Shown here in pieces: positions 22,255 to 42,438 of a stretch of 64,000 bases of DNA. Origin of the DNA: Acidobacteriota bacterium (lineage in GTDB: Bacteria; Acidobacteriota; Terriglobia; Acidiferrales; UBA7541); contig QHYM01000099.1 of assembly GCA_003223295.1 (NCBI GenBank), positions 1-64,000 of the forward strand, given 5' to 3'. Each line of letters starts with the position of its first letter. Position 1 is the first letter of the stretch. The notes beneath the pieces were generated by a model. That model saw only the letters and a program-made list of their open reading frames with translations, had not been told where the DNA came from and searched no databases. The translations under genes were made by a program, and so were the position numbers.

Positions 22255-22298
22255 ATTCTATTGACCTCCTCCAAGTTCGCCGCGCCAAGCGGGCAGGG

Positions 22299-23513
22299 TC
22301 ACGAGGCGCCTGCGAACATGGATTTCAATTTGGATACCAGGGTCCCTGAGCGATTCTGACCGGACCGGCGCGCCTTCGCGCCAGTCAACACCAGTCCAAC
22401 CACTGTGGCGTACTCCGGTTGAGCCACCTGTTCCGGCAGGTCCGCCAAACCCTTTGGCTCCGCGATGCGCACCGGCAAACGGAAGGATTGCTCGATGAGG
22501 TCATCGAGGCCGCGCAAACGCGCGCCACCGCCAGCGAGAACAAATCCCGCGGGAATCTGGCCGTCGAGGCCAGCGCGCTGAAGGTCGTCGCGAATCAGCG
22601 AAAGTAATTCCATTGCACGCGGCTCGATGATGTCCGTGAGCATGTGCGGGAAAATGGTGCGAGGCGGCCGATCGCCGACGCTGGCGATTTCAATCGCACC
22701 GTTGTCTTTGATGAATGACGAGGCCGCCCAGCCGTGGCGGCGCTTGATGCGTTCGGCTTCGGGAATGGGCGTGCGCAAGCCCACGGCAAGATCATTCGTG
22801 AAGTGGTCGCCGCCAATGGGAACAACGCCGATGTGACGAACCACGCCGCCGCCATAAGCGATCACTTCAGTCGTGCCACCACCGATGTCCAGCAGGCAGC
22901 AACCGAGGTCGCGCTCGTCCTGCGTAAGGCAAGCTTCGGCCGAAGCAAGCGGTTCGAGAACGGTGTCGCTGATGAGGATTCCCGACTTGTTCGCCGCGGT
23001 GACGAGATTCTGCGACGCCGCAACGGAGGAGGTCACCACGTAAACGTTGGCGACAAGGCGCTGGCCGACCATTCCGATGGGGTCGCGGATACTATCCTGC
23101 GCATCGACGATGAATTCGTGCGGGAGGACGTGCAGTACTTCGCGGTCTTCCGGAAGAGAGATGTTGCGCGCGGCATCCACGGCGCGGCGCACGTCTTCGC
23201 GCTCGATGTCGCGCGGGCGCTGCCCCAGGGTGATGCCACCGCGGCTGTTTACGCCGCGCACGTGGTTTCCGGCCACGCCGATGAGCGCTTCTTCCACGGG
23301 CACGTTGGCCACGCCTTCGGCCTCTTCAACGGCGCGCCGGATCGAACTCACCGTGGAATCCAGATTCACAATCAGTCCCTTGCGCAGACCTTTGGATTCG
23401 GCCGCGCCGAGCGCCAGAAACTTTACGAACTCACCATCGATTTCCGCGATCAGGACAGAGGTTTTAGTGCTGCCAATATCAAGCCCAACCAGGTATTTGT
23501 CTTTCTTCGCCAA
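22299..23513 (-). CDS. ftsA: Cell division protein FtsA
   Basis: YLVGLDIGSTKTSVLIAEI, SHMC-domain region, CLLDIGGGTTEV. Confidence 0.97.
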   Translation of the reverse strand: MAKKDKYLVGLDIGSTKTSVLIAEIDGEFVKFLALGAAESKGLRKGLIVNLDSTVSSIRRAVEEAEGVANVPVEEALIGVAGNHVRGVNSRGGITLGQRPRDIEREDVRRAVDAARNISLPEDREVLHVLPHEFIVDAQDSIRDPIGMVGQRLVANVYVVTSSVAASQNLVTAANKSGILISDTVLEPLASAEACLTQDERDLGCCLLDIGGGTTEVIAYGGGVVRHIGVVPIGGDHFTNDLAVGLRTPIPEAERIKRRHGWAASSFIKDNGAIEIASVGDRPPRTIFPHMLTDIIEPRAMELLSLIRDDLQRAGLDGQIPAGFVLAGGGARLRGLDDLIEQSFRLPVRIAEPKGLADLPEQVAQPEYATVVGLVLTGAKARRSGQNRSGTLVSKLKSMFAGAS

Positions 23514-23534
23514 GCCGCCGCTCCTGCGATGAAT

Positions 23535-24473
23535 CTATTTTATTTTCGCGGCCACCGTGCCCGCACTGGTGTCGGGATTCACGACCACTTGCCGCGTGTA
23601 CTGCAAATCGATGGACTGCACGCGCCCGGTATGGGCCTGCCACTGCGAAAAATTGTCCACGAGCATCTTGTACTTGCCGGAGAAATCGCTCGAGCCGAAA
23701 TGAACCGTCACTGCCTGAGCATCGGTTGCGCTCGCAAGGCCGGTCATGACCACGCGCAAATCCTTGAGAATAGACAGGTCCACTTCGCTGACGTTTTGGG
23801 ATGATCCCCCGCGGACCAATTCGATATCCTTCATGAATTCCTGATACAACTGCATACGCTTCTCGCGCTGATCGCGCTGCACGTCTTCGGAGACTCCGCT
23901 TACGATCGGAAATTGCAAATCCGCATCGCGAGGCCGGTCGAGAATCACCCCGTGAGCGTCAATCAGCGCCAGCTCATTTGCATTGCGGGCAAAGGCGATG
24001 GGCGTCCGCTCTGAGAGCTCGATGCGAATCCGGTTGGGAAGAATGCGCTGCACGCTCGCAGATTCCACCCAAGGGATTTGCTCAAGCTGGCTCCGGCGGG
24101 TATCGAGCGGAATTTGCAAAACACTGTGGTTGCGGTCCTGTGCGAATTGCTTCAGTATGGCCTCGCGCGCGACCACGTGATTGCCAGTCAGTTCGATCTG
24201 CTCAGGCTTCAGCAACAGCATCGACGGCGAATAAAGAAGGAATCGAGTCCCGTAAAACGCCGCGACCGTAACGACAGCACCCGTGGCTGTGAAAACCAGG
24301 ATCCGGCGGTAGAAGGTCCAGCCGCGCCCGCTCAGCTTCTTGCGGCGGATTTCGACGGGCTTCTGCCGGCGAAGGTAGCGCGGTTCATCGTCGGAAATCA
24401 GCTCCGGCCGGTAACGCTCGCTGGCGTCAGCGGCAGCGGTGGCGTTCCTTTGCATGGGCTTCAGGCGTTCCAA
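23535..24473 (-). CDS. ftsQ: Cell division protein FtsQ (POTRA domain)
   Basis: Single TM, POTRA (IELTGNHVVAREAILKQF), position between murB and ftsA. Confidence 0.92.
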   Translation of the reverse strand: MERLKPMQRNATAAADASERYRPELISDDEPRYLRRQKPVEIRRKKLSGRGWTFYRRILVFTATGAVVTVAAFYGTRFLLYSPSMLLLKPEQIELTGNHVVAREAILKQFAQDRNHSVLQIPLDTRRSQLEQIPWVESASVQRILPNRIRIELSERTPIAFARNANELALIDAHGVILDRPRDADLQFPIVSGVSEDVQRDQREKRMQLYQEFMKDIELVRGGSSQNVSEVDLSILKDLRVVMTGLASATDAQAVTVHFGSSDFSGKYKMLVDNFSQWQAHTGRVQSIDLQYTRQVVVNPDTSAGTVAAKIK

Positions 24474-25369
24474 ACGACCACCTCATTCTCCAAGGCCACG
24501 CCGTAAGCTTTCTGGACGCGCTCACGCACATCGGCGATCAGCGCCAACATATCTTTGGCGGAGGCGTGACCCGCATTCACAAAAAAGTTGGCATGACGGT
24601 CGCTGACTCGCACATCGCCGACGGAGAGACCTTTGAGCCCCAGCTCATCAATCATGCGGCCCGCGGAGGCCCCAGGAGGGTTTTTGAAGATGCAACCGGC
24701 ACTTTTTTGCCCAAGCGGCTGACTGGAGCGCCGTTTTTCGTTGCAGATACGAATGCCTTTTAGAATTTCGTTGTACGTTTTGGAGGGTAGTTCCAATATC
24801 ACTGCGAGCATCATATCATCAGGCGCAAAAGAAGTGTGGCGATATTCGAAGGAAATTTGATGCCCCCGCAGGGTTTCGATTTGCCGGGTGGCGGCCCGGT
24901 AGAGCTTCACTTCGCGGACATAGCTACCGATCTGCATCCCGTAGGCGCCGGCATTCATCCGCAGCGCCCCGCCCACGGTTCCCGGGACTCCGATTAAGCC
25001 TTCCATACCCCCCAGGTCACGCTTGGCGCAGAAGGTGACGGTGCGGCCAAGGTCCGCGGCGGCATCCACATGAGCGAAATTGCCTTCCAGAACGACGTCA
25101 GACTCGGGCGGCACGAGTTGCAAGACAACCCAGAGCAGCTCGCCGTCTCCCACCAGCAAGTTCGAACCCCCGCCGAGAAATTTGTTGGGAATGTGGTTTG
25201 CGTCCAATAGCTGGAGCAAATCCGGAATAGTTTCATGCTTTGTGATGCGGAGCAGGTCCGTTGTGCCGCCGATGCCCAGAGAAGTCAGTTCCGACAGCTT
25301 TGCTCCCTGGCGCAGTTCGACACGAAGCTCCGTCAAACGTCCAATCAAGTTGGGATCGCTAATGCGCAT
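24461..25369 (-). CDS. murB: UDP-N-acetylenolpyruvoylglucosamine reductase
   Basis: [46 protein letters not shown]. Confidence 0.97.
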
Positions 25370-26765
25370 GTTGCGCCGGATGCTCCGCTCCTAGAAGAGT
25401 GGTTAATTCGTTGCTTGCGCGGCTGACGCTGCCCGCGCCAATGGTCAAAATCGCGTCGCCCGGGCGCGCTTGCTTGAGCAAAAGCTCAATGCCCTCCTGA
25501 AGCGAACGGGAGTAGTGAACATTTTTATGTCCGGCGCCACGAATGGCATTGGCAAGCGCTTCGCTGGTCACACCTGGTTTGGGCGCCTCGCTTGCGGCGT
25601 AAATATCGGTTAAGACGAGAACATCGGCTTGGTTGAACGCGCGGCAGAATTCATCCCAAAGGTGCTGCGTCCGCGTATAGCGATGCGGCTGGAAAAGGAC
25701 CAGCAGCCGGTTGAACTTGCAGCCGCGGGCGGCGTCAAGCGTCGCGCGGATTTCGGCCGGGTGATGGCCGTAGTCGTCGATGACGGTAATGTCGTTCACC
25801 ACGCCCTTAATGTCGAAGCGGCGGCCAACACCGGCGAATTTTGCGAGGCCCTCGCGAATCAGGTCGGCGGCGACATTGAGATACAAGGCCACGGCCGCGG
25901 AAGCGGCGGCATTGCGTACGTTGTGCATCCCCGGAGGATGTGACAAGCGAAAGAGGCCAAGATCATCGCCTTTATAGGTCAACCGGAATTCGCTCTCCAA
26001 ACCATCCAGCTTTATTTCACTGATCACCAGATCGGCCTGGCTCGACGTTCCGTAAGTAATGATGGGACGCTTCACGCTGGGAATGACGGCTTGCACGTTG
26101 GGTTCGTCCACACACAGAATCGCCGCGCCATAAAACGGCACACGATTCACAAACTGGATGAAAGCATCCTGGATATCCTCGAGCGAGCTGTACTGATCGA
26201 GATGTTCGCGGTCGATGGTGGTCACCACTGCGACGACAGGCGCGAGCATGAGGAAGCTGCGGTCACTCTCGTCCGCCTCCACGACAAAGTATTCGCCTTT
26301 GCCCAAACGCGCGGTAGTGCCCGCTTGATTGACTCGCCCACCGATCACGAACGTGGGGTCGAGGTGGGCCGCGGCAAGCACCGAGGCAACCATGGAAGTC
26401 GTGGTGGTCTTGCCATGCGCGCCGGCAACGGCAATGCCGTATTTCAGGCGCATCAATTCCGCGAGCATCTCGGCGCGCGGGATCACCGGAGTTTTCATGT
26501 TGTGGGCTTCGATGACTTCAGGATTGTCTGGTTTCACGGCGGAGGAAGTCACGACGACGTGCGCGCCATCGGCGTTCGAGGCTTGGTGGCCCTCGTAAAT
26601 AGTCGCGCCCAATTTCTGCAGCCGTTCGGTGATGTTCGACAGTTTTACGTCCGACCCGGAAACGGAGTAGCCCAGCGTAAGAAGAACCTCGGCGATGCCG
26701 CTCATGCCGATGCCGCCGATGCCCACCAAATGAATGCGTTGAAAATTGCGAAACGAGACCATCAT
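25359..26765 (-). CDS. murC: UDP-N-acetylmuramate--L-alanine ligase
   Basis: [49 protein letters not shown]. Confidence 0.97.
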
Positions 26766-27859
26766 GGATTTGCCCTCGCTGCTTTGCCTTGCACGTTTGC
26801 GGCCTCTTCAATCAAGTTGACGATTTCTCGCGTGGCTTGAGGGCGGGCCAATGCGCGCGCGTTCGAAGAAAGCTTTTCGATTTCCTGGGGCTGCTCGAGA
26901 AGCGAGAAAATTTCGGCGGTCAGTTTTTCTGGCGTCAACTCGGGCTCGGTAATCAGCCGCCCCGCGCTAGCCCGCGCCATTTCCTGCGCGTTGCGCAATT
27001 GATGGCTGTCCGTCGCTCTTCCAAAGGGAATGAAAATGGCGGCGCGGCCCGCGGCCGCGACTTCCGCGGCGGTAATCGCTCCAGCGCGGCAAACGATGAC
27101 GTCGGCCCAGCCGAAGCGCTCAGGCATGTTCGTCAGAAAGGGCACCACCTCCGCCAGGATTTCGCGCCGCGCATAAGCGGTACGCACCGCGTCATGGTCG
27201 CGCTCGCCGGTTTGATGCACGATGCGCAGCTCGTTTTTTCGCGTGGCCAGGCGGTCCATGGAATCCACAAACACACGGTTGATCGGCAGAGCGCCCTGGC
27301 TGCCGCCCGTAACGAGCAGGCGCAAGGGATTTCCGGGCTTGCGCGGCGCAATCGAAAAGAACTCCGAACGCACCGGGCATCCCGTAACCACCGCCTTTTC
27401 TCCCCACGCCTGTGCAGAAATTTCATAGCCGGTGGCAATGCGCTTCGAAAGACGCGCCAGCAATTTGTTCGTGAGGCCTGGCTCCGCGTTGGGCTCAAAG
27501 ATGATATTCGGCACGCCCCCGAGCCAGGTGGCCAATAACATGGGCCCCGCCGCGTAGCCGCCCACTCCAAACGCGGCAACCGGCTTGTGCTTGCGCAACA
27601 CACGCCTGGCGTCAAACATGGCGGGAACGAGCATCGTCAGATTCTTGAACAGGATCGCTCCGCCCTTACCCTTTAGTCCCGCAACACGCAGCGTTTCCAG
27701 CAGCAGGCCTGCCTGCGGCACGAGCTTCATCTCAATTCCGCGTTCGGTTCCTACGAGCACGACTTCTCTTTCTTTCCCTCTGGATAGCCACTCGCGGGCA
27801 ATGGCCAGCGCCGGGAAAACGTGTCCGCCTGTGCCGCCGCCTGCAATCAGCAATTTCAC
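26762..27859 (-). CDS. murG: UDP-GlcNAc:undecaprenyl-PP-MurNAc-pentapeptide GlcNAc transferase
   Basis: [25 protein letters not shown] start inferred from alignment to the family N-terminus. Confidence 0.95.
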
Positions 27860-27875
27860 TTGACGCGCCCGATCC

Positions 27876-28994
27876 TCAAGATTCCGTGGCCTGCTGCGAA
27901 ATGTTGAGCAACACACCCGTGCCCAGCAGCATCACCAGCAAACTCGACCCGCCATAGCTGATGAATGGCAGCGGAATTCCTTTGGTCGGCACCATTCCCA
28001 AGACCACGGAGAAATTGATCAGCGCCTGCCACAAGACCATGGTGGTAATGCCCAGCGCGAGCAAACGGCCGAACGCGTCCGGCGCTGCGAAGGCTGCCCG
28101 AATGCCGCGCCTGCCGTACACGACAAACAGCGCGATCACGATCACCGCGCCGATGAAACCTAGTTCTTCGCAAATCACGGCGTAGATGAAATCGGTATGC
28201 GCTTCGGGCAGGTAGAAGAGCTTTTGCTTGCTTTCCATCAAGCCGACGCCGGTGAGTCCACCGGAACCCACCGCGATCAAGGATTGCCTCAACTGGAAGC
28301 CCGCACCTTGCGGGTCGGAGCCGGGATCCCAGAACGAGAGCAACCGCGCCATTCGATATGGAGCCAGCGTAATAAGCAGATAGAGCGCGGGCAGAGCTAC
28401 GGCAGATCCTGTAGCAATCCACTTCCAGGAAAGTCCCGCGACAAACAGAATCGTCGTGGCAAAGAGCAGGATATCCACTGAGGTGCCCAGGTCTGGCTGC
28501 CCCAGGATCAATGCAACGCAAACAAGGACGGGCGCAAACGCGGGCAGAATGGTGTGAAGAAAATCTTCTTTGCAGAACTCCATCGCTTCCTTGCCGCGTC
28601 GCTTTTGGTCCAAAAACCATGCGAGATAAAGAATCACGGCTAGCTTGGCGAGCTCCGAAGGCTGGATTCCTATTGGGCCAAAACGGATCCAGCGATGCGT
28701 GGCGTGGGACCGATCCAAAAAGAACGCGCCGACCAGCATCAGCAAAACAACGCAAACCACCGGATAGATCACCGCGGGCTGGCGGAGCTTGTGATAGTCC
28801 GTGCGCATCAAGACGAACATTCCTAGAAGCCCAATCAAAAGCCACGCCGCTTGCCGCAGCAGAAAGATGTACGAGTGCCCGTACAACTGCTCCGCCGTCA
28901 CGGCAGAAGCACTCAGGATCATCACCGCGCCAAACAGACAGAGCGCGAGCGTGACGCCAAAGAGCCATCTGTCACTGTCCGGCCGTCTCGGCAC
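27876..28994 (-). CDS. ftsW: Lipid II flippase/polymerase FtsW (SEDS family)
   Basis: SEDS topology; [35 protein letters not shown] and [16 protein letters not shown]. Confidence 0.95.
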   Translation of the reverse strand: [372 protein letters not shown]

Positions 28995-29000
28995 GTTGGT

Positions 29001-30392
29001 TCACCGCCCTCCCGAAGTCGTGCTCGTAGCCTGTCGCTCGAGCTGCTGCACAAGCTCCTTGAAAACGCGGCCGCGGTGCTCATAGTTTTGAAACTGGTCG
29101 AAACTGGCGCAGGCTGGCGCCAGCAAAACGATGTCTCCCGCGCGTGCGGCGTGTGCGGCGGTTTCGACGGCTCGTTCGATCGTTCCGGCCTGTTCGATGG
29201 CTACGCTACCGGCAATTTGCTTCTCGATTTTGCCGGCTGCGGCGCCAATCAAAAGCGCGAGAATGGCTTTCTCTCGCAGCGGCGCCTGCAGCAACGTGTA
29301 GTCGCTGCCTTTGTCCTTGCCGCCCAAAATGATCAGGATGCGGCCCGGAAAAGCGTCGAGCGCTTTCAGTGTGGCATCCACGTTGGTGGCTTTCGAATCG
29401 TTATAAAAACGCACTCCGCCAATTTCCGCGACGAACTCGAGGCGGTGTTCAACCCCCGCAAACGACCGCACGCCCTTGGCGATGGCGGCAGGTTCTGCGC
29501 CCGCGAGACGCGTCGCAGCCACTGCCGCGAGCACGTTTTCCACGTTGTGCGCCCCAGCCAGCGGAATATCGGTGAGTTGGAGGACTGGCTCCTCCACTCC
29601 GTCGCGGCGAAACAAGATTTCGTTTTCCTTCACGAAAGCGCCTTGCACGACGCGCTGCCTTCGGCTGAACCAATACACTTGCGGTTTTGTCAGCGCATAC
29701 GGAGTCGTGCCCGGATCGTCAGCGTTCAAGACGGCGCTATCTGCTTCCGTCTGGTTCTCAAAGATTCGCGCTTTGGCAGCGCCGTAGCTTTCTAGAGTGT
29801 GATGGCGGTCCAGATGATCGGGCGTGAGATTCAGGAATACGCTGATGTTTGGACGAAGCGTTTCAATCAGCTCCAACTGAAAACTGCTCAGCTCCGCAAC
29901 GGTGACGCTTTTGTCGCTGGCTTTGTCGACGCAAGAGATCAATGGCGTGCCGATGTTGCCCGCAAGAATCGTGGAAAATCCGGCGCTGCGCAAAATGTGC
30001 TCGATCAACGACGTAGTGGTCGTTTTCCCGTTCGATCCGGTAATCCCAATAAGACGCCCTTTTAGGAAGCGACTTGCAAGCTCGACCTCGCTCCAAATCG
30101 TCACGCCCTTCGCCCGCGCGGATTGGAGAAGAGGCGCGTCCGCCGGCACGCCGGGACTGGGAATAATCAAATCCGCGTCCCGGATTAGCTCTTGCCGGTG
30201 GCCGCCGAATTCGAGGCCAACTCCTGCCTTTCGCAGAGGAGCGATTGAATCAGCAAGTTCCTTTTCAGATCGTGCGTCCGTCGCGGTCACGCGTGCGCCT
30301 CGCGCGGCACAGAACAACGCCGTGGCCAGCCCGGTCCTGGCCAGACCGACGACGAGCACGCGCTTGTTCCGAAGCTCGATGGACGCGGACAT
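29001..30392 (-). CDS. murD: UDP-N-acetylmuramoylalanine--D-glutamate ligase
   Basis: GITGSNGKTTTTSLIEHIL, NLTPDHLDRH, ILGGKDKGSDY; start at internal ATG 30392 (ORF is longer). Confidence 0.96.
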   Translation of the reverse strand: MSASIELRNKRVLVVGLARTGLATALFCAARGARVTATDARSEKELADSIAPLRKAGVGLEFGGHRQELIRDADLIIPSPGVPADAPLLQSARAKGVTIWSEVELASRFLKGRLIGITGSNGKTTTTSLIEHILRSAGFSTILAGNIGTPLISCVDKASDKSVTVAELSSFQLELIETLRPNISVFLNLTPDHLDRHHTLESYGAAKARIFENQTEADSAVLNADDPGTTPYALTKPQVYWFSRRQRVVQGAFVKENEILFRRDGVEEPVLQLTDIPLAGAHNVENVLAAVAATRLAGAEPAAIAKGVRSFAGVEHRLEFVAEIGGVRFYNDSKATNVDATLKALDAFPGRILIILGGKDKGSDYTLLQAPLREKAILALLIGAAAGKIEKQIAGSVAIEQAGTIERAVETAAHAARAGDIVLLAPACASFDQFQNYEHRGRVFKELVQQLERQATSTTSGGR

Positions 30393-30409
30393 TTTGGTTG
30401 CCGAATCTC

Positions 30410-31543
30410 CTACCTCAATTTCAACGTCGTCAGAGCAAACAATGCGAAAACCAACGCGGCGATCCAGAAGCGCACGATCACCTTGGATTCGCTCCAGCCC
30501 AGCAGTTCGAAATGATGATGAATGGGCGCCATGCGAAAAATGCGCTTGCCGCGCAGTTTGAACGAACCTACCTGCAGAATCACGGAAAGCGCTTCGACAA
30601 CAAAGATTCCGCCTACAAAGAACAGCAAAATCTCCTGCTTGATGATGACGGCGACGGTCCCAAGCGTTCCGCCCAGGGACAACGAACCAACATCTCCCAT
30701 GAAAATTTCCGCAGGATGCGCGTTGTACCAGAGGAACCCCAGTGATGCGCCAACCAGCGCCCCGCAAAAAACCGTGAGTTCACCGACTTTAGGAATGTAT
30801 TGAATGTCGAGGTAAGCCGCCCAACGAAAGTTGCTGCTGACGTAGGTAAGCACGGTAAGAGCCCCCGCCGCAATGACCGTGCAACCAATGGCGAGGCCAT
30901 CGAGGCCATCGGTGAGATTCACGGCATTCGAGGAACCAACAATCACCAGGCAGACAAAGATGAGAAATGGAAGAAACGCCACGGGCCACCAATACGGAGT
31001 CTTCATCAAGGCGTGAATCACGAGGTCTGGGTGAATTCGCTTGGCAAACGGAATCACCAATTGCGTCGAGTAAACGTTACGCGTCAGCAGCACGAGCAAA
31101 GAACCGCCGACGATCAAACTGACCAAAACTTGGAAGTAGATTTTCTTCTTCGCCGTGAGGCCTAGGTTCTGCCGCTTCGAGACTTTGGCGTAGTCATCGA
31201 TGAAACCGATGATCGCAAATCCAGCCAAGGCAAAGAGCGCAATCAAGATGAACGGATTCGTCAGATCGGCCCAAAGCAGCGTCGGAATGGCGGTGGATAG
31301 CACGATCAGCACGCCGCCCATTGTCGGCGTCCCCGCCTTTTTCTGATGCTGCTGAGGACCCTCTTCGCGGATGTACTGGCCGATCTGGAGTTCACGCAAA
31401 CGGCGAATCAGCCACGGGCCAAAAACGAGCGCAAGGAACATCGCGGTCAGGCTGGCATAGACTGTTCGAACCGTGATGTAACGAAAGACATTGAGCGGAC
31501 TAAACGAGCGCCGCAGAACCTCGACGAGGAGGTAGTAGAGCAT
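30410..31543 (-). CDS. mraY: Phospho-N-acetylmuramoyl-pentapeptide-transferase
   Basis: KKAGTPTMGGVLI, NAVNLTDGLDGLAIG, PIHHHFEL. Confidence 0.98.
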   Translation of the reverse strand: MLYYLLVEVLRRSFSPLNVFRYITVRTVYASLTAMFLALVFGPWLIRRLRELQIGQYIREEGPQQHQKKAGTPTMGGVLIVLSTAIPTLLWADLTNPFILIALFALAGFAIIGFIDDYAKVSKRQNLGLTAKKKIYFQVLVSLIVGGSLLVLLTRNVYSTQLVIPFAKRIHPDLVIHALMKTPYWWPVAFLPFLIFVCLVIVGSSNAVNLTDGLDGLAIGCTVIAAGALTVLTYVSSNFRWAAYLDIQYIPKVGELTVFCGALVGASLGFLWYNAHPAEIFMGDVGSLSLGGTLGTVAVIIKQEILLFFVGGIFVVEALSVILQVGSFKLRGKRIFRMAPIHHHFELLGWSESKVIVRFWIAALVFALFALTTLKLR

Positions 31544-32983
31544 TTAGTGCCGAACCTCTTGACGCGAAGACTCTCCTTGTGCAGCGTTGCGGGCGATCAG
31601 TGCTTCGACAATCTGTTCCATTTTCACTCCGCGTGAACCCTTCACCAGCAGCAAATCGCCGGGTGCTACCAAGGTTTCCAAGAATTTGGCTGCTTCCGGC
31701 GGCGTTTCAAAAAACTTCGTCCGCGCGCGCAGCAGGCCTGCCGCCACTGCCCCTTCCACGATTTGGGAAGCGTCACCGGCCACGCCGATGACCCAATCGA
31801 TCTTCCCGGTCTTGGCCGCAAGCTGCCCCGCCTCGCGGTGCAACTCCGGCGAGGCACTTCCCAGTTCGCGCATCTCGCCGGCCACAAGAATCCGCCGCTG
31901 AAAATTCGGAGTGGCCGCGAGCAATTCCATCATGGCCTGCAGCGCTGCCGGGCTCGAGTTGTAACTGTCATTGATCAGCGCCGCCCCGTTCGAAAACTGC
32001 AGCAGCTCCCCGCGCATGGCCGGAGCCCGCAGGGTGTTAAATACGCTCTGCGCCTCTGCCGCGCCGATTCCCCAAACGCTCGCGGCAGCCAGTGCCGCCA
32101 GTGCGTTCGCAATCGCATGCCGACCGGGAACGGTCAACTCCAACCGCACGCGCCCTTCCGGGCTCACGTAATCGAACGCCGATCCCAACGCGCCCCGGTC
32201 TTCAATTTCCTCCGCCATGAAGAACGCCTGCTTTTCGATGCCATACGTCAGCACGCGCCCGGGCGCATAAGGCCCAAACGCCGCAACACGCGGATCGTCC
32301 GCGTTCAATACCGCCGTCGATCCTCGGCCGTTCAATCCCTCGATCAATTCGCGCTTGGCCAGCGCAATCTCATCCACCGATGCAAAGAATTCCAAATGCG
32401 CGGGAGAGACGCGCGTCACCACACCAACGTCGGGCCGTGCAATCGCCGCCAGCCGCGACAGTTCTCCGCGCCGCGACATCCCCATTTCCAGCACCGCCGC
32501 CTGATGCGTTTCTTCCAGGCGAAACAGCGTCAGCGGCAGCCCGTACTCATTATTCAAATTTCCTTCGGATTTCAGGACCCGCAGCTTCGTGCCCAGCAAG
32601 GCCGCCAGAATTTCCTTCGTGGTGGTCTTGCCAACGGAGCCAGTGACGCCGGCAATTTTCCCGCCCCATGCTTCGCGCACAGCCCGCGCCAATTGCTTGA
32701 GCGCCTCGAAAGTGTCGGCCACGGGGATGCAGCGGTCGCCCACCCAGCCCGTAAACCGCGGGAGCTGCGCTTCCGCCACCACAGCCGCCACAGCTCCGAG
32801 CTCCAGCGCACCGGCCACATGATCGTGTCCGTCGTGACGCGGTCCGTGGATAGCCACGAACAGTTCTCCGGCACGTACCGTGCGAGAATCAATCGACACA
32901 CCGGCCAGCCGGGCCACGGGGTCGAGTCCCGCCCCCGGCCGAGTACCCAAAGCGCCAGCCACCTGTGCAATCGTCCACCGCAT
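31544..32983 (-). CDS. murF: UDP-N-acetylmuramoyl-tripeptide--D-alanyl-D-alanine ligase
   Basis: GVTGSVGKTTTKEILAALL, LEMGMSRRGELSRL, INDSYNSSPAAL. Confidence 0.97.
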   Translation of the reverse strand: MRWTIAQVAGALGTRPGAGLDPVARLAGVSIDSRTVRAGELFVAIHGPRHDGHDHVAGALELGAVAAVVAEAQLPRFTGWVGDRCIPVADTFEALKQLARAVREAWGGKIAGVTGSVGKTTTKEILAALLGTKLRVLKSEGNLNNEYGLPLTLFRLEETHQAAVLEMGMSRRGELSRLAAIARPDVGVVTRVSPAHLEFFASVDEIALAKRELIEGLNGRGSTAVLNADDPRVAAFGPYAPGRVLTYGIEKQAFFMAEEIEDRGALGSAFDYVSPEGRVRLELTVPGRHAIANALAALAAASVWGIGAAEAQSVFNTLRAPAMRGELLQFSNGAALINDSYNSSPAALQAMMELLAATPNFQRRILVAGEMRELGSASPELHREAGQLAAKTGKIDWVIGVAGDASQIVEGAVAAGLLRARTKFFETPPEAAKFLETLVAPGDLLLVKGSRGVKMEQIVEALIARNAAQGESSRQEVRH

Positions 32984-33135
32984 AAGTTCCTCAAAAGATT
33001 GGTCTTAGTCCAACACCCCACGGCTCGTTCGTTTTTCAACGTTTTGAGGGCTCCTCCTCTCGAGAGGTCTGTCTTTGGCTCGCCCCGACCGCGTCGGAGC
33101 CCGAGCGCCCTCGCCACGGCGATGAAACAAGCGCG

Positions 33136-34743
33136 CTAGGTGCCAAACCCGGAGCCGTCTTGCGGCCCTTCAAAACCGCGATCGCGAAGCGCGCGCCGCG
33201 CCACTTCGCGATCCTCAAATTGCAGCGTGCGATCCGCGAGAATCTGATAATTCTCGTGGCCCTTTCCAGCCAACAGCACGATGTCGCCGGCGCGCGCCTC
33301 ATCCATTGCCATGCCGATAGCTTTTTCGCGGTCCGGCTCGATCAAATATTTTCCAGCCGTCTTTTGCAATCCCACGATGATGTCGCTGATGATTTTCAGC
33401 GGATCTTCCGTGCGCGGATTGTCGCTCGACAGAATCGTCAGGTCGCTCAGCCGTCCCGTCACTTCTCCCATGACCGGCCGCTTGGTGCGGTCTTTCAATC
33501 CTCCGCACCCGAAAAGGGTGATGATGCGGCCTTTCGGATTAAGCTCGCGCGCGGTGCGAACCAGATTCTCCAACGCGTCATCCGTGTGCGCGTAATCCAC
33601 AATCACCAGGAAGGGCTGGCCTTGATCCACGCGCTGAAAACGGCCCGAAACGCTCTCGAGATCCTGGATGCCTTTCTCGATGATTTCATTCGAAAGCCCC
33701 AAAGCCTGCGCCGCGCCGACCGCCGCCAGCAGGTTGTACACATTGATTCGCCCGACGAGTCGCGAGGTCACCTGCACTTTTCCATGGGGGGTTTGCGCCG
33801 TGAAACTCAGGCCCTCGAAGCTGAGATGAAATTTCTTGGTGGTGATGTCCGCTTCCGATTCTAGTCCATACGTGACGGTCTTCTTTGCCAGCCCTTCCAA
33901 CTGCTTGCCGTAACCGTCGTCGGCATTCACAACCGCAACTTCTGGCCCGCCCGCCCCGGTGCCTTCGAACAGCCGCCTTTTGGCCGCGAAATAATCCTCA
34001 AACGTCTTGTGATAATCCATGTGCTCGCGCGTCAAATTCGTAAACACCGCCGCTTGAAAATGGCAGCCCCACAACCGGTCCATTGCCAGCGAATGCGAAC
34101 TCGCCTCCAGCACCGCAAACTTTCCTCCGGCGTCGCGAATCTCGGCAAGAAACCCTTGCAGGTCCACTGATTCGGGCGTCGTGTTCGGTGCAGGATGGTC
34201 GCCGAGCGGTGTGTGATAAGCGATGGTGCCAAACAAACCGGTTCGCGCGCCGGAAGCTTTCACCATCGCGTCGACGAGCGAAGTGGTAGTAGTTTTTCCG
34301 TTTGTTCCGGTCACTGCGACCAGTTGCAAGGCATTGGCAGGATGGCCAAAGAAATTTGCCGCCGCGGTCGCCAGCGCTTTCCGTTCCTCGCGAACCTGGA
34401 CCCACGCAACTCCGCGCGGAAGTTTCTTGGGCGCCGCCCCCTCGCTGGCTACGGCCACGGCGCCGCGTTTCAATGCATCTTGGATGAATGTATTTCCGTC
34501 CGCTTTTGCGCCATGCAGCGCAAAAAACAGTGCGCCTTTCTCCACTCGGCGAGAATCACAGCTCACCTGCTGAATCTCGATGCCGTCGGCGTCATTTGGC
34601 AAAGTGGCTTCCACGCCGTCAAACAGCTCGCTCAGTTTCTTCGCGATTTTCGACCCGGCGACTTGGACAGAAGTTTTCAGAGGTTTTTCCCGCCCGGCGG
34701 TGGTATGTCGCACCTGTTTTTCTCGGCGCAGTGCCATCTTCAT
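33136..34743 (-). CDS. murE: UDP-N-acetylmuramoyl-tripeptide synthetase
   Basis: AVTGTNGKTTTTSLVDAM, NLTREHMDYH, DNPRTEDP (diaminopimelate-type DNPR motif). Confidence 0.97.
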   Translation of the reverse strand: MKMALRREKQVRHTTAGREKPLKTSVQVAGSKIAKKLSELFDGVEATLPNDADGIEIQQVSCDSRRVEKGALFFALHGAKADGNTFIQDALKRGAVAVASEGAAPKKLPRGVAWVQVREERKALATAAANFFGHPANALQLVAVTGTNGKTTTTSLVDAMVKASGARTGLFGTIAYHTPLGDHPAPNTTPESVDLQGFLAEIRDAGGKFAVLEASSHSLAMDRLWGCHFQAAVFTNLTREHMDYHKTFEDYFAAKRRLFEGTGAGGPEVAVVNADDGYGKQLEGLAKKTVTYGLESEADITTKKFHLSFEGLSFTAQTPHGKVQVTSRLVGRINVYNLLAAVGAAQALGLSNEIIEKGIQDLESVSGRFQRVDQGQPFLVIVDYAHTDDALENLVRTARELNPKGRIITLFGCGGLKDRTKRPVMGEVTGRLSDLTILSSDNPRTEDPLKIISDIIVGLQKTAGKYLIEPDREKAIGMAMDEARAGDIVLLAGKGHENYQILADRTLQFEDREVARRALRDRGFEGPQDGSGFGT

Positions 34744-34744
34744 C

Positions 34745-36886
34745 CTAATGCCTGCGCTTCCGTTTCGGCTTGGCGATCTTTGCCGCTGGTGCCCCGAATT
34801 GCACCGTCAGCCTCGCCCCTCGCCGCACCTTCATTCCCGCCGCAGGCGCTTGACTTACTGCAAGACCGCTGCCAACCAAAAGGGGATCCAGCCCCAGTTT
34901 CAAACACGCCGCCGTCACTCCCCGCATGGTCTTTCCCGAGAAGTCCGGCAAGGGGATGTCGCCGCCTTCATCCACCGCCACTGTCACTGCAGGTACTTGA
35001 TCTTTCGCACTCCTCGCATTTGTCCCGGAGAGCTCGGCTGGGGGTAGGTCCGGTAGGGCAGTAAAATCCGTTGGAGTGAAATCCGAGAGCGCTGCTAAGT
35101 TTGATGCATTTCCATCCTTGTACGCAACTTGAATCAACCGTGGCTGGACCGGCACGTCGCGGGGCACGTCCAGGTACGGCAACACTTGCTCGGCGATCCG
35201 CTTGAAAACCGGCGCTGCCACTTGTCCGCCTTCATGCTGTCCTACCGGCGAATCCAGCGACACCAGGATGGTCACCGCCGGGTTGTTGATGGGCGCAAAT
35301 CCCGTGAAGGAGGCAATCAGTTGCGTGTGGGAGTAGCGGCCTGTGGCTGGATCGATTTTTTGTGCTGTGCCGGTTTTGCCCGCGGCCGTCCAGCCATCGA
35401 GGTGGGCCAGCGGTCCGGTACCGTTCAAAACGACGCCCTCCATCAGCCGGCGAAGGGTCGCCGCCGTTTCTGGACGGATAACGCGCCTCGGCTCCCCTGA
35501 AGCCAGAGCGCTCCCAGTGGGCAACACCTTATTGTCGCGGCGCAGTTCCGCCACGATATGCGGCTTGTAGAGCATCCCGCCGTTCGCGATTGCGGAAACG
35601 GAGCTAATGAGCTGGATGGGCGTGACGCCCACCTCTTGCCCCATCGAAATCGACCCAATCGAGATGGCCGACCAGTTTTCCAGCCGCCTTACCAGCCCCT
35701 TGCTTTCGCCGGGCAAATCCACACCCGTAAGCTGGCCGAATCCAAACGCGCGAATGTAGTCGTAAAATTTCGGCGCTCCCAAACGCAGCGCGATTTTGAT
35801 CGCTCCCACGTCGCTCGATTGCGCAAGGATGTCCGAGACCGTCAGCAATCCGAATGGCTTATGGTCGCGGATGCGGTGCCCCGCCACGTACACGGCGCCG
35901 TTTTCGCAATCGAACACTTCCTCCGGCCGGACGATGCCCTGGTCGAAAGCCGCTGCCAAAGTGATCAACTTGAATGTCGACCCCGGTTCGTAGAGCGCTG
36001 TAACCGCGCGGTTCATCCGCGACTCCGCGGACGCGCCGTTCGCCACGTTTGGATTGAATTTCGGCCAATTGGCCAGCGCGAGAATTTCCCCCGTGTTGGG
36101 ATTCATCACCACAACGCTACCAGCCAGAGCACGCGTCTTCGTGATGGCTGCACCGAGCTCGCGCTCTGCGATGTATTGAATCTTTTCATCCAGCGTAAGA
36201 ATTACGTCGGCTCCGCGTTCGCGCCGTGCCTCCACGCCGTCGAACCAGCGCTGCCGCGCGTCGGCCATCACCACGATCTTTTCGCTCTTGCCGCGAATCT
36301 TGCTATCCAGCTCGTATTCGATTCCACCCAGGCCCTTTTCATCGACGTCAACAAAGCCCAGCACGTGAGCGGCAAGGTCCCGTTTCGGGTAAACGCGCTG
36401 GTTCTCTTTCTGAAAGTAAATGCCTTTCAGATTCAGTGCCTCGACAGCTTCCTTTTTGTCGGGCGGCACTTTGCGCGCTATCCAGACGAAGCTTTGCGCC
36501 GATCCCAATCGCGCTTCCAGAACGTCGCGGGGGATGCCCAAAACCTGTGAGAGCAACTGCGCTGCGAGCTGCGCATCTCCTATTTCAATGGGTACGGCAA
36601 ACACGGAATCCACCGGGATGCTCATGGCCAGAGGATCCATGTTGCGGTCGTAAATGGAGCCGCGCCTTGGTGTGATTTCAATGGTGCGCTGTTGCTGCCG
36701 CGCCGCGCGCACCAGGTAGTCGCTGTGACGGAGGAGTTGCAGGTAGCCCAGCCTGCCGAGGACCGCGGTGAGGCATACGAGAATTACTGCGGCAACCATG
36801 AGCAGCCGCTCGTTGGCTGTGAACTCACGTCTGCTGGTCCCCGCTCGGCGGTCAGCCTTCACGACGTGCGCGCGATTGTGGGCCAT
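34745..36886 (-). CDS. ftsI: Division-specific transpeptidase (FtsI/PBP3) with C-terminal PASTA domain
   Basis: RRGSIYDRNMDPLAMS, YEPGSTFKLITL (SxxK), KTGTAQK, C-terminal PASTA-like PLPDFSGKTMRGVTAACLKLGLDP. Confidence 0.95.
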   Translation of the reverse strand: MAHNRAHVVKADRRAGTSRREFTANERLLMVAAVILVCLTAVLGRLGYLQLLRHSDYLVRAARQQQRTIEITPRRGSIYDRNMDPLAMSIPVDSVFAVPIEIGDAQLAAQLLSQVLGIPRDVLEARLGSAQSFVWIARKVPPDKKEAVEALNLKGIYFQKENQRVYPKRDLAAHVLGFVDVDEKGLGGIEYELDSKIRGKSEKIVVMADARQRWFDGVEARRERGADVILTLDEKIQYIAERELGAAITKTRALAGSVVVMNPNTGEILALANWPKFNPNVANGASAESRMNRAVTALYEPGSTFKLITLAAAFDQGIVRPEEVFDCENGAVYVAGHRIRDHKPFGLLTVSDILAQSSDVGAIKIALRLGAPKFYDYIRAFGFGQLTGVDLPGESKGLVRRLENWSAISIGSISMGQEVGVTPIQLISSVSAIANGGMLYKPHIVAELRRDNKVLPTGSALASGEPRRVIRPETAATLRRLMEGVVLNGTGPLAHLDGWTAAGKTGTAQKIDPATGRYSHTQLIASFTGFAPINNPAVTILVSLDSPVGQHEGGQVAAPVFKRIAEQVLPYLDVPRDVPVQPRLIQVAYKDGNASNLAALSDFTPTDFTALPDLPPAELSGTNARSAKDQVPAVTVAVDEGGDIPLPDFSGKTMRGVTAACLKLGLDPLLVGSGLAVSQAPAAGMKVRRGARLTVQFGAPAAKIAKPKRKRRH

Positions 36887-36964
36887 GATGGGTTCGGTTC
36901 GGCCAGCGCTCCGCCTCGAGCTTCCCTGAGCGTGTAAATTCTTTGACGCCGTGCCGGCAAACTG

Positions 36965-37381
36965 CTATTGCGAGCGGCTCTGGCGTACGTATCTCGCAGC
37001 AGCCACCTGCGCTCCCGCAGGAGCGTCGTATTCGCGTACTTGCGTTGGCAGTGGCTCGGTCAGGCCCAATTGGCGGCGCGCAATCACATCAATGCGCATC
37101 GGGTTTCGCAGGCTGGCAATTTCCAGCTTCAAGGAAGAATTCAGCGTCGCCGCTTCCACCTGTTTTGCCTTTACTTCCTCCAATTGGAAGCTCAGATCGA
37201 TGCAGCGAAAGTGTTGGTAGATATAAAGCATGAAAAAAGCGGCCACGATTCCGCCCAGCGCCAGCGTGCGGTAGTAATACCGCAGCTTCACGGGCTCGAC
37301 GTGCCGCACCAGGCGCGAATTGTCGATCCGCTTGACGGTCTGAAATTCCCGCACTGCCCTTGCCTTTTTCTTGCTCGACAT
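36965..37381 (-). CDS. ftsL: Cell division protein FtsL
   Basis: Small single-TM protein with coiled-coil (LSFQLEEVKAKQVEAATLNSSLKLEIASLRNPMRIDVIARRQLGL) between rsmH and ftsI. Confidence 0.88.
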   Translation of the reverse strand: MSSKKKARAVREFQTVKRIDNSRLVRHVEPVKLRYYYRTLALGGIVAAFFMLYIYQHFRCIDLSFQLEEVKAKQVEAATLNSSLKLEIASLRNPMRIDVIARRQLGLTEPLPTQVREYDAPAGAQVAAARYVRQSRSQ

Positions 37382-37383
37382 GA

Positions 37384-38259
37384 CTACACTCTTTCCGCGC
37401 ACCGCAGTTTCGCGCTTCGCGAACGCGGGTTGCCGGCCATCTCTTCCTCGCTGGGCTGGATTACATGTTTGGTCAGCACGCGGAGCGTTCCTGCCCGCTC
37501 ACCCTCCTGAAACGCTCGCTTCACCAAGCGGTCTTCCCGCGAGTGGTAGCTCAGCACTACCCAGCGACCGCCCGAATTCATTGTGACCGGGGTCCGAGAA
37601 AGAAACTGCCCGAGTTCCTCCAACTCTCGATTCACCGCTATCCGCAGCGCCAGAAACGTTTTTGTTGCGGGATGCAGTCTCTGCCTTCCCCATTGCTTTC
37701 GGGCCCCTGCCACAGTCGTTGCCAGGTGCGCGGTGTCTCGTATCGGTCGCGCTCTCACGATCGCCCTGGCGATCTTTCTGGAATCGTGCTCGTCCGCTTC
37801 GCGGTAGAGCAAGTCGGCCAGCTCTCTCTCCGGCCATCGATTCACAATTTCGTCTGCCGTCAATTCGTCCTCGGCATTCATGCGCATATCCAGCGGACCG
37901 GCCTCGCGAAAGGAAAACCCGCGCTCGGCCTGATCAAGCTGCATGCTCGAAACTCCCAAGTCGGCCAAGACCCCGTCCACCGGCGGAATCCCCAACTCTT
38001 GTGCGACCTCCGCAATCCGCGAGAACGGTGCATGCGCCACTGTCACCTTCGCCCCAAAGATCTTCAGCCGCTCCCGCCCCATGGCGAGCGCCTGTGCGTC
38101 CCGGTCCAGACTGGTCAGCCTTCCAGAGGTCAATTTCGCGGCTATTGCTGCTGAGTGCCCGCCCGCTCCCAGCGTGGCGTCGATGTACGTTCCGTCCGGC
38201 TTTACGCGCAGCCATTCGAGCACCTCTCCCAACATCACCGGCGTGTGCGCCGCACCCAA
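37384..38259 (-). CDS. rsmH: 16S rRNA (cytosine1402-N4)-methyltransferase
   Basis: HTPVMLGEVLEWL, DATLGAGGHSAAI, DGVLADLGVSSMQLDQAERGFSF. Confidence 0.97.
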   Translation of the reverse strand: MGAAHTPVMLGEVLEWLRVKPDGTYIDATLGAGGHSAAIAAKLTSGRLTSLDRDAQALAMGRERLKIFGAKVTVAHAPFSRIAEVAQELGIPPVDGVLADLGVSSMQLDQAERGFSFREAGPLDMRMNAEDELTADEIVNRWPERELADLLYREADEHDSRKIARAIVRARPIRDTAHLATTVAGARKQWGRQRLHPATKTFLALRIAVNRELEELGQFLSRTPVTMNSGGRWVVLSYHSREDRLVKRAFQEGERAGTLRVLTKHVIQPSEEEMAGNPRSRSAKLRCAERV

Positions 38260-38280: not shown

Positions 38281-38721
38281 CTAAATCCCCAAATCTTCCA
38301 AGGCCTTGTCGTCTTCGTCCGTGTACGGCTCATTCTTCAACTGATCCAGCATTCGCGTGTGATTCATCACTTCCAGGTAGTCCAGGTTGCCCAGCACATC
38401 CACGTCTCCCTTGGCCTGGGCCGATTCCCGCAGCACAGTCGGCAGGAGCAGCCTGCCCTGCCCATCCAATTCCACGGTCTGACCGTAATAGCTGGTTCGC
38501 ATCAAAAACTTCCTTTTTGCTCGGTTCGTGCTCGGCATCTTCTCCAGCTTGTCTTCAATCTCCGACCAAGCCTTCATCGGATAAATTCGCGCCGTTTCAC
38601 CGGTGGTGCTGGTGATGTAAAACTGGTTGCCGTACTCCTTCAATTGGTCGAGAAACACGGCGGGTATCTTCAGACGACCCTTCTCGTCCACCTTCGCTGG
38701 ACAGTTGCCCCGCAGCTTCAT
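38281..38721 (-). CDS. mraZ: Transcriptional regulator MraZ
   Basis: LRGNCPAKVDEKGRLKIPAVF, first gene of dcw cluster; two SpoVT/AbrB-like halves (YYGQTVELDGQGRLLLPTVLRESA). Confidence 0.95.
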   Translation of the reverse strand: MKLRGNCPAKVDEKGRLKIPAVFLDQLKEYGNQFYITSTTGETARIYPMKAWSEIEDKLEKMPSTNRAKRKFLMRTSYYGQTVELDGQGRLLLPTVLRESAQAKGDVDVLGNLDYLEVMNHTRMLDQLKNEPYTDEDDKALEDLGI

Positions 38722-38797
38722 TTGCCCCGCTCAGCTCGACCCGATTGCCGGAATCGAACGCGAAAATGTGGTTTACAATGGCCAAAATGCCCACTTT

Positions 38798-38883
38798 CGC
38801 CACAACTCTGGGTAGTTGTCTACTTTGCCCTACCGCCCGCTACCTGACCCTACTCCTACCCACTTCTTACCACTTTACGCCAC
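38798..38883 (-). promoter_or_regulatory. MraZ-box-like operator array: eight in-phase GTRG boxes at 10-bp period
   Basis: Minus strand: GTGGCGTAAA GTGGTAAGAA GTGGGTAGGA GTAGGGTCAG GTAGCGGGCG GTAGGGCAAA GTAGACAACT (ACCCAGAGTT) GTGGCGAAAG. Confidence 0.7.
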
Positions 38884-38911
38884 ATCCTACTTGGTTTTGC
38901 GCCCTTGTCAA
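38884..38911 (-). promoter_or_regulatory. Putative sigma70-type promoter of mraZ/dcw operon
   Basis: Minus strand TTGACA (38911-38906), 16-nt spacer, TAGGAT (38889-38884). Confidence 0.6.
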
Positions 38912-39292: not shown

Positions 39293-40225
39293 ATGCGCGT
39301 AAAAGTCCTCGGATCCGCAGCCGGGGGTGGCTTTCCCCAATGGAATTGCCAGTGTCCAAACTGTAGCGGTTTGCGCCGCGGCTCACTCAAGGCTCGTCCG
39401 CGCACGCAGACGCAGGTTATCTTTTCTCCCGACTCCAAAATCTGGTTTCTGCTTTGCGCTTCTCCCGATCTACGGCAGCAAGTGCTCTCCGCCCGCGAGC
39501 TAGCACCCCCCGAGGATTCTTCTCCCTCCCCGATTGCCGGCGTCTTTCTGCCGAGCGCCGACGTTGACTCCGTGATGGGCCTGCTCCATCTGCGCGAGTT
39601 TCAGAGTTTTTTTGTCTTCGCTACGCGCGGTGTGCAGTGTGCCCTTCAAAAGGAAAACCGCATCTTCCGCGTCTTGGAGCGCTCCAATCCGCCCGTGAAA
39701 TGGCAGACCCTGTCGAGCAAAGGACGCTTGGGCTGTCATTTGACGGAAGATTCCTCCGGCCCCGCGGACTTCATCTGCACGACCCTGCCGCTGGGAGGTT
39801 GCTATCCGGATTACGTCAGTGAGGAAACCCTGAGTGCGCTTCCACCTGACGAAGCAACGATCGGCTTCGTCATGGAGCAAGGCGACAAACGCCTCTTCTT
39901 TGCGCCGTCGCTTTCCGGATCTTCGGGCGCGTGGAGGTCTATTGCCGAAACCTCGGACATTGTTTTCATCGATGGTACCTTCTGGAGCGACGACGAGCTC
40001 ATGCGTACGGGCCGCAGCAGAAAGTCCGCTTGCGAGATCGGCCACTTGCCGCTCTCCGGCCCCGGCGGCCTCCTGGAGCAATTTCCTGCGAACGCCAAAG
40101 GCCGCAAAATCTTGATTCACATCAACAACACCAATCCCATCCTTGACGAAAAAAGCGCCGAGCACCGCGTCGTGCTGGATGCCGGCTTCGAAATCGCCTA
40201 CGATGGCATGGAGCTCGAACTCTAA
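39293..40225 (+). CDS. pqqB: PQQ biosynthesis protein PqqB
   Basis: MRVKVLGSAAGGGFPQWNCQCPNCSGLR. Confidence 0.97.
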   Translation: MRVKVLGSAAGGGFPQWNCQCPNCSGLRRGSLKARPRTQTQVIFSPDSKIWFLLCASPDLRQQVLSARELAPPEDSSPSPIAGVFLPSADVDSVMGLLHLREFQSFFVFATRGVQCALQKENRIFRVLERSNPPVKWQTLSSKGRLGCHLTEDSSGPADFICTTLPLGGCYPDYVSEETLSALPPDEATIGFVMEQGDKRLFFAPSLSGSSGAWRSIAETSDIVFIDGTFWSDDELMRTGRSRKSACEIGHLPLSGPGGLLEQFPANAKGRKILIHINNTNPILDEKSAEHRVVLDAGFEIAYDGMELEL

Positions 40226-40228
40226 AGT

Positions 40229-40993
40229 ATGGCCGCGCCAACAACCAGTAGTCTCGAAAAGTCGCTGCTCTCCGAAGCCGAGTTCATCGCCGGTTTTCAC
40301 GCCATTGGTGAAGAGCGCTATCACCACAAGCATCCGTTTCACTTGATGATGCACGAAGGCAAGCTCACGCGCGGCCAGCTCCAAGCCTGGGCGCTCAACC
40401 GCTATTTCTACCAGAGCCGCATTCCGATCAAGGACGCAGCCATCCTTGCCCGCAGCGAGGATCCTGCATTTCGCCTCGCATGGCGCAAACGCATCCTCGA
40501 CCACGACGGCGAGGGCGCGAAGCCAGGCGGAATCGAAAAGTGGCTAAAGCTAGTCGAAGCCACGGGGCTTTCACGCGATCACGCTCTGCGCGGCGACGGC
40601 ATCCTTCCCGCCACGCGCTTTGCCGTGCAAGCCTATGTTGACTTCGTTGCCACGCGCTCGCATGTTGAAGCCGTTGCCTCGTCTCTCACCGAACTTTTTT
40701 CGCACAAACTCATCGCTCTGCGCATGGATCGCATGCGCCAGCACTACCCCTGGCTTTCTGGCGGCCTCGACTACTTCACCGGCCGCCTCACGCAAGCCCC
40801 CGAAGACGCGGAGTTTGCGCTGGCATGGGTGGTGAAGCACGCGCGCACTCGCGAAGAACAGGACAAGGCCCATGCTGCTCTGCGCGCCAAATGCGACATT
40901 CTGTGGGCGCAACTTGACGCTCTCTATTTCGCCTACGTGAATCCCGGCTGGCCTCCTCCGGGCGCCTTCCTGCCCGCCAAGGAAAATGCATGA
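40229..40993 (+). CDS. pqqC: Pyrroloquinoline-quinone synthase PqqC
   Basis: YHHKHPFHLMMHEGKLTRGQLQAWALNRYFYQSRIPIKDAAIL. Confidence 0.97.
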   Translation: MAAPTTSSLEKSLLSEAEFIAGFHAIGEERYHHKHPFHLMMHEGKLTRGQLQAWALNRYFYQSRIPIKDAAILARSEDPAFRLAWRKRILDHDGEGAKPGGIEKWLKLVEATGLSRDHALRGDGILPATRFAVQAYVDFVATRSHVEAVASSLTELFSHKLIALRMDRMRQHYPWLSGGLDYFTGRLTQAPEDAEFALAWVVKHARTREEQDKAHAALRAKCDILWAQLDALYFAYVNPGWPPPGAFLPAKENA

Positions 40994-41268
40994 GTGTGGA
41001 TTTAAACAGCCGGCCGCGGCTCGCCGCGGGATGCCGTATGGGAGAAAACAACAAACAGCGTGTCCTGCTGATGCCCGAACGCGCTCTGCGCCTCAATGGC
41101 CCAAGCTTGGAAATCGTGTCGCGCTGCGATGGCAAGTACACCGTGGCGCAAATCATTGGCGAGCTGCAATTGCTCTACTCGAAGGCCGAGCCGCATAAAG
41201 TCGAGCAAGACATCCTCGGCTATCTCGAACTTTTGCAGAAGGAACGTGCCCTCGACTTTGACGTGTAG
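40990..41268 (+). CDS. pqqD: PQQ biosynthesis peptide chaperone PqqD
   Basis: RPRLAAGCRMGENNKQRVLLMPERALRLNGPSLEIVSRCDGKYTVAQIIGEL. Confidence 0.95.
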   Translation: MSVDLNSRPRLAAGCRMGENNKQRVLLMPERALRLNGPSLEIVSRCDGKYTVAQIIGELQLLYSKAEPHKVEQDILGYLELLQKERALDFDV

Positions 41269-41304
41269 GGTCCGCCTTCCGGGGCGGGCCGCTCTTCGCT
41301 GCCC

Positions 41305-42438
41305 ATGCCAACCGCCATAAACAATCCGCTCGCTCTCGTCGCCGAACTCACGCACCGTTGCCCGCTTCATTGCGTCTACTGTTCGAACCCTCTTGAACTG
41401 CAATCCCGTTCGAATGAACTCTCCACCGAGATTTGGTCCGGCGTGTTCAAAGAAGCGGCTGCCGCCGGTGTTCTCCAGGCCGATTTCACGGGGGGTGAGC
41501 CACTCGCGCGGCCCGACATCGTCGACCTCGTCCGCAATGCGCGCTCCGCCGGGCTTTATGTCAGCCTCATCACTTCCGGCCTGCCACTCGACGAAGCAAA
41601 GCTCGAAGCCTTGGTGCAAGCCGGACTTGATCACTTTCAGCTTAGCTTCCAAGGCGCGCGCGAAGAAACCGCCAACGACATTTCCGGCACGAAGTCCCAG
41701 CAGCACAAACTGCGCGTTCTTCAATGGCTCAAGCGCTATCGCATCGGCCTTACACTGAATTTTGTGATCCACCGCCGCAACATTGACGAACTCGAGGAAA
41801 TGCTCGCCATCGTGGAAGATTCCGGCGCGGGCCGCGTGGAATTTGCCAGCGTGCAGTATTACGGATGGGCCTTTGCCAACCGCGACAATCTTCTGCCGAC
41901 ACGGCAACAATTGGATCGGTGCGTAAAGCTTCTTCATCGCGCGGAAGAACACCTCTCCGGCAAGACTCGCATTGTCTTCGTCGTGCCGGACTACTACGCC
42001 AAGTTTCCCAAGCCCTGCGTCGGCGGATGGGGCCGCAAGCTCATGCTCATCACACCGAGCGGCGACGCGCTTCCCTGCCACGCCGCGCCGGTTATTCCCG
42101 GCTTGAAATTTGCAAACGTGAAGAACCGCAGCCTACGTGAAATCTGGGAACATTCCGAAGCATTCCAGAAATTCCGCGGCGAGGACTGGATGCAAGAGCC
42201 ATGCAAATCCTGTGATCGCCGTGCGCAGGATTTTGGCGGCTGCCGCTGCCAGGCGATGCTTCTCACCGGTGACGCCAATGCGACCGATCCCGTCTGCTCT
42301 CTCGCTCCGCAGCGCCCGAAAGTGGACGCCGTCCTAGCCAAAATAAACGATGGGCGCACTGCTGGGGCTGAGCTTGCCTCGCCGGTGGTAATTTCCGCAG
42401 ACAAGATCAATTGGCTCTATCGCGCGAACCCTGTGTGA
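41305..42438 (+). CDS. pqqE: Radical SAM PqqA peptide cyclase PqqE
   Basis: LTHRCPLHCVYCSNPLEL (CxxxCxxC) and SPASM cysteines CKSCDRRAQDFGGCRCQA. Confidence 0.97.
   Translation: MPTAINNPLALVAELTHRCPLHCVYCSNPLELQSRSNELSTEIWSGVFKEAAAAGVLQADFTGGEPLARPDIVDLVRNARSAGLYVSLITSGLPLDEAKLEALVQAGLDHFQLSFQGAREETANDISGTKSQQHKLRVLQWLKRYRIGLTLNFVIHRRNIDELEEMLAIVEDSGAGRVEFASVQYYGWAFANRDNLLPTRQQLDRCVKLLHRAEEHLSGKTRIVFVVPDYYAKFPKPCVGGWGRKLMLITPSGDALPCHAAPVIPGLKFANVKNRSLREIWEHSEAFQKFRGEDWMQEPCKSCDRRAQDFGGCRCQAMLLTGDANATDPVCSLAPQRPKVDAVLAKINDGRTAGAELASPVVISADKINWLYRANPV

Follow-up and report, generated by a model that had tools for sequence, protein, structure and literature searches.

A lengthened array of 10-bp-phased GTRG boxes between promoter and mraZ in an acidobacterium, a predicted MraZ operator

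The cell-division (dcw) gene cluster of a soil acidobacterium with a genome of 6.03 Mb is preceded by an array of short GTRG boxes with an exact 10-bp period, and this array is very probably a lengthened autoregulatory MraZ operator heading the dcw operon. MraZ boxes have been described in a few model bacteria. Our comparison shows such a phased candidate operator across a little-studied phylum, lengthened along the helix in one genus. As predicted here, the array is an operator of a known kind, distinguished by being longer and by having GTAG in the additional boxes. The features below lie in the stretch of 64,000 nucleotides that was analysed (the window).

38884–38911, minus strand: sigma-70-type promoter TTGACA-N16-TAGGAT
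38854–38883, minus strand: core boxes 1–3 (GTGG, 10-bp period), directly after the −10
38834–38853, minus strand: boxes 4–5 (GTAG), a constrained extension
38814–38833, minus strand: boxes 6–7 (GTAG), a weakly supported extension
38763–38803, minus strand: second conserved element, which opens with the in-phase GTGG of unit 9
38281–38721, minus strand: mraZ, likely the reader of the boxes
21076–38259, minus strand: remaining dcw cluster, rsmH to ftsZ

Read on the minus strand from position 38883 down to 38794, units 1–9 of the array are GTGGCGTAAA GTGGTAAGAA GTGGGTAGGA GTAGGGTCAG GTAGCGGGCG GTAGGGCAAA GTAGACAACT ACCCAGAGTT GTGGCGAAAG, with GTRG in each of units 1–7 and again in unit 9. The promoter hexamers TTGACA (38911–38906) and TAGGAT (38889–38884) are 16 bp apart and box 1 abuts the −10, from where the array extends into the 5′ leader. 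Both the promoter with its phased boxes and their course into the leader are present as an earlier sequence-only reading had described them. This promoter is the single sigma-70-like site within the 501 bp scanned (shuffle mean 0.3), and its hexamers are conserved among relatives of the same genus. The 220-bp region holds a chain of seven GTRG units, whereas none of its 20,000 dinucleotide-preserving shuffles had a chain longer than 3. Pattern searches of the 6.03-Mb genome found no second site where GTRG occurs four times running in 10-bp steps, and the combination GTGG-GTGG-GTRG was absent elsewhere.

The mraZ product matches PF02381 (E 9.3e-19) with 67.6 bits, against a Pfam gathering cut-off of 23, in two stretches that correspond to two domains, and alignment with E. 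coli MraZ shows that the DxxxR motif is kept in both. Its score against the TIGR00242 equivalog (75.7 bits, E 3.3e-21) is under the cut-off of 98.35 bits and its sequence match to solved MraZ chains such as 1n0e is weak, so the protein is a divergent member of the family; its position in the dcw cluster supports orthology. The cluster does comprise the 15 genes of the sequence-only reading, in the order mraZ, rsmH, ftsL, ftsI, murE, murF, mraY, murD, ftsW, murG, murC, murB, ftsQ, ftsA and ftsZ, as judged by Pfam matches, with the mraY ORF (30410–31543) assigned by position only and ftsL by a sub-threshold DivIC match together with position. Across the shared intergenic region, a pqqB-C-D-E-like gene run (39293–42438, plus strand) is divergent from the dcw cluster.

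The array has the features of known MraZ sites. In E. coli K-12, the one genome compared outside the phylum, the region upstream of mraZ reads TTGACA, a −10 of TAAACT and then GTGGGAAATT GTGGGGCAAA GTGGGAATAA GGGGTGAGG, and thus also has GTGG boxes with A-rich triplets at an exact 10-bp period after a sigma-70 promoter, but there are three exact boxes and a degenerate fourth (GGGG), without a GTAG extension. The Mollicute site, given as (AAAGTGKN3)3 with binding shown (Fisunov et al., 2016, as cited in PMC5282649), shares the GTG core, the preceding AAA and direct repeats at a 10-bp period; as described there it has three units and demonstrated binding, whereas the acidobacterial array is a predicted site. 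In Burkholderia cenocepacia, PmraBc carries four 7-nt repeats with 3-nt spacing just after the −10, a layout like that of the array, and controls a 15-gene transcript, the same gene number as in the cluster studied here (PMC7761207). The four-unit PmraBc fragment was bound by MraZ in EMSA, while the acidobacterial array is known from its sequence.

Measured against these sites, the array directly repeats a GTG(G) core every 10 bp (seven consecutive units and unit 9) and lies on the sense strand, downstream of the −10 and upstream of the mraZ start. An AAA precedes the GTG core as in AAAGTGK, more weakly at later boxes: the last spacer letters before box 2 and box 3 are A in 81–100% and 61(G)–90% of same-genus arrays, respectively. 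The number of units, 7–8 instead of 3 or 4, is a difference in length, and a core of three is present. As motif, period and position all agree with the E. coli, Mollicute and B. cenocepacia sites, we read the array as an MraZ operator.

The closest relatives with a name are uncultured Acidobacteria that carry the label gp2, some of them called Candidatus Acidiferrum. Most of the relatives compared are metagenome assemblies. All 31 distinct same-genus arrays are in register, with the first box abutting the −10 in every one, and GTRG occurs 163 times in register in these arrays vs 0–9 times at any other register. Boxes 1–3 are GTGG-like across the genus and later boxes are mostly GTAG. Column rates are given as parsimony changes per column, counted on a 27-taxon mraZ tree, and since the relatives share ancestry the tests on them are indicative. 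Boxes 1–3 are nearly invariant (0.33 changes per column vs 6.67 at fourfold sites, p=1.5e-6), boxes 4–5 have 2.75 changes (p=0.001 vs fourfold sites) and boxes 6–7 have 6.0 (p=0.27), so that constraint fades with distance from the promoter. The spacers evolve at the neutral rate, with 7.8 changes per column in spacers 1–3 and 9.25 in spacers 4–7.

This gradient bears on a less probable but still plausible alternative, in which the MraZ site consists of boxes 1–3 only, or perhaps extends to box 5, and the later GTAG units are functionless remnants of 10-bp tandem slippage. The fading constraint and the fourfold-like rate of boxes 6–7 are as this alternative would have it, and locus L055 is longer than L033 by one whole 10-bp unit, as slippage would give. 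On the other hand, boxes 4–5 are constrained, boxes 4–7 evolve more slowly than their own spacers (p=1.3e-5; p=0.022 for boxes 6–7 taken by themselves), and the spacers differ in sequence from one another, which those of fresh tandem repeats would not. The array does exceed the length usual in the phylum, as the sequence-only reading had proposed for MraZ sites, while clear constraint is found only at about five of its eight proposed boxes.

The ninth unit likewise holds an in-phase GTGG as had been claimed, but this belongs to a separate conserved element rather than to the array. The 41-bp element (GTGGYGAAAGTGGGCATTTTGGCCATTNTAGACCACATTTT, 38763–38803, minus strand), seen in L032–L058, matches the core boxes in conservation within a clade of about 15 genomes. 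Over 15 genomes it has 0.69 changes per column, compared with 3.07 for fourfold sites (p=2e-8). It contains GTGG-9 bp-GTGG in the forward direction and a further GTGG in reverse orientation, and has no second copy in the genome. At 25 same-genus loci with a matching element, the phase of its GTGG to box 1 is 0 at 17 and ±1 at 6, with other phases at the remaining 2. This phasing and the extra in-register unit of L055 fit selection on helical phase, although 10-bp slippage could look alike. Folded alone, the element does better than its shuffles in some of the species (z −2.7 to −0.5), so it might form a hairpin locally. Its role may be that of such a hairpin, of an auxiliary MraZ site or of a site for another regulator. 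An upstream ORF is unlikely, as judged by eye from the alignment, which has indels in L021 and L023 and substitutions at second codon positions.

The GTRG pattern had been set by the original finding before the phylum was surveyed. Among 109 mraZ loci outside the genus, three or more GTRG boxes with the 10-bp period were found in 64, a lower bound because exact matching misses degenerate boxes. Three consecutive boxes are the mode (48 loci), four occur in 11 and five in 5, and none of the surveyed mraZ loci has three boxes on the opposite strand. All five-box loci belong to genus g48, whose GTRG arrays before mraZ resemble that of the window in exceeding four in-register boxes but differ in that all five are GTGG, without GTAG, and in a −35 less like TTGACA. 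Two relatives of the same order (G037 and G038) read GTGG-GTGG-GTGG-GTGT-GTGG. At least five boxes were found among 396 genomes, a draw in which the window's genome is the only member of its genus, in this genome, the g48 genomes, G153, G318 and G441; the runs in the last three resemble short tandem repeats, G153 being without mraZ and G318 and G441 having mraZ on a different contig. Relatives throughout the genus, and the majority of loci sampled in the phylum, thus keep the 10-bp-phased motif just after the promoter and on the sense strand of mraZ, so the lack of conservation that the sequence-only reading had named as its refutation is not what is seen.

Eight genomes from three genera keep rsmH while mraZ is undetectable (G094, G153, G162, G199 and G207 of g56, G145 and G171 of g87, and G068 of g33); three more were uninformative, with a cut contig or a degenerate mraZ-like frame left. 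At none of the eight mraZ-less loci is rsmH preceded by even two in-phase boxes. The boxes thus track mraZ (0/8 vs 64/109, Fisher p=0.0013), in a comparison that covers three genera only, and the regulator has apparently been lost along with its predicted operator. These loci speak against the very improbable reading that a different, unnamed regulator in control of the dcw operon reads the boxes, which would be why they adjoin mraZ: the boxes are missing where mraZ is missing even though rsmH stays, and their motif, period and position fit the published MraZ sites. What this reading has on its side are the 45 of 109 mraZ loci without three exact boxes. Conservation in genus and phylum, absence from mraZ-less dcw loci and the E. 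coli K-12 register together support the earlier proposal of an MraZ operator.

The G-richness of the array (42% G on the minus strand over 90 bp) and a precedent in Staphylococcus aureus, where a G-quadruplex has been reported downstream of the mraZ promoter (PMC11796246), could be taken to mean that the array works through a G-quadruplex or a fold of the leader RNA, as a nucleic-acid structure and not as protein sites. We consider this very improbable. The GTAG boxes have no GG run and still keep the register, and a period of exactly 10 bp speaks for a role of the DNA helix. A structured leader RNA was rejected: alifold found no pair with both sides changed in the 3′ leader, the leader folds no better than its shuffles (z −0.10), and Rfam gave no match.

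Under the preferred reading, the phased GTRG array that runs from the −10 into the leader and is conserved together with mraZ would be read on one face of the DNA by several subunits of one MraZ ring, each on a successive box. The three GTGG boxes beside the −10 would be the core site found across the phylum. Bound MraZ would cover the transcription start and the early transcribed region and so repress the operon, and we infer that repression extends to the whole 15-gene cluster. The GTAG boxes are probably weaker sites that lengthen the bound tract and either raise cooperativity or grade repression as MraZ accumulates; the sequence-only reading had suggested a longer wrapped complex or graded repression, either of which may apply.

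DNA might also wrap around an MraZ ring, and an octamer fully wrapped by eight boxes is numerically attractive. As the eight boxes over about 90 bp match a ring of eight subunits, the DNA might curve around the greater part of one ring in the manner of a small nucleosome, with the weak GTAG boxes setting the extent of the wrap; we consider this arrangement improbable, but if it were true, repression would depend on wrap length. The natural series of 3 to 8 boxes offers a ready set for the study of how a ring-shaped repressor reads DNA and of whether the number of boxes grades the control of cell division.

Some records of the relatives are themselves irregular. A single metagenome assembly (QHYJ01) holds two different mraZ contigs, L032 and L055, and the upstream region of one is identical to that of the window, while L052 and L060 have an acidobacterial-type mraZ under the record titles Betaproteobacteria and Bacillota; bins or labels look wrong in these cases. 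Finally, L061, L036 and L037 have between one and three close copies of a short inverted repeat of the GGCAGCCGTAGGACGGCTGAC type just 5′ of the mraZ start.
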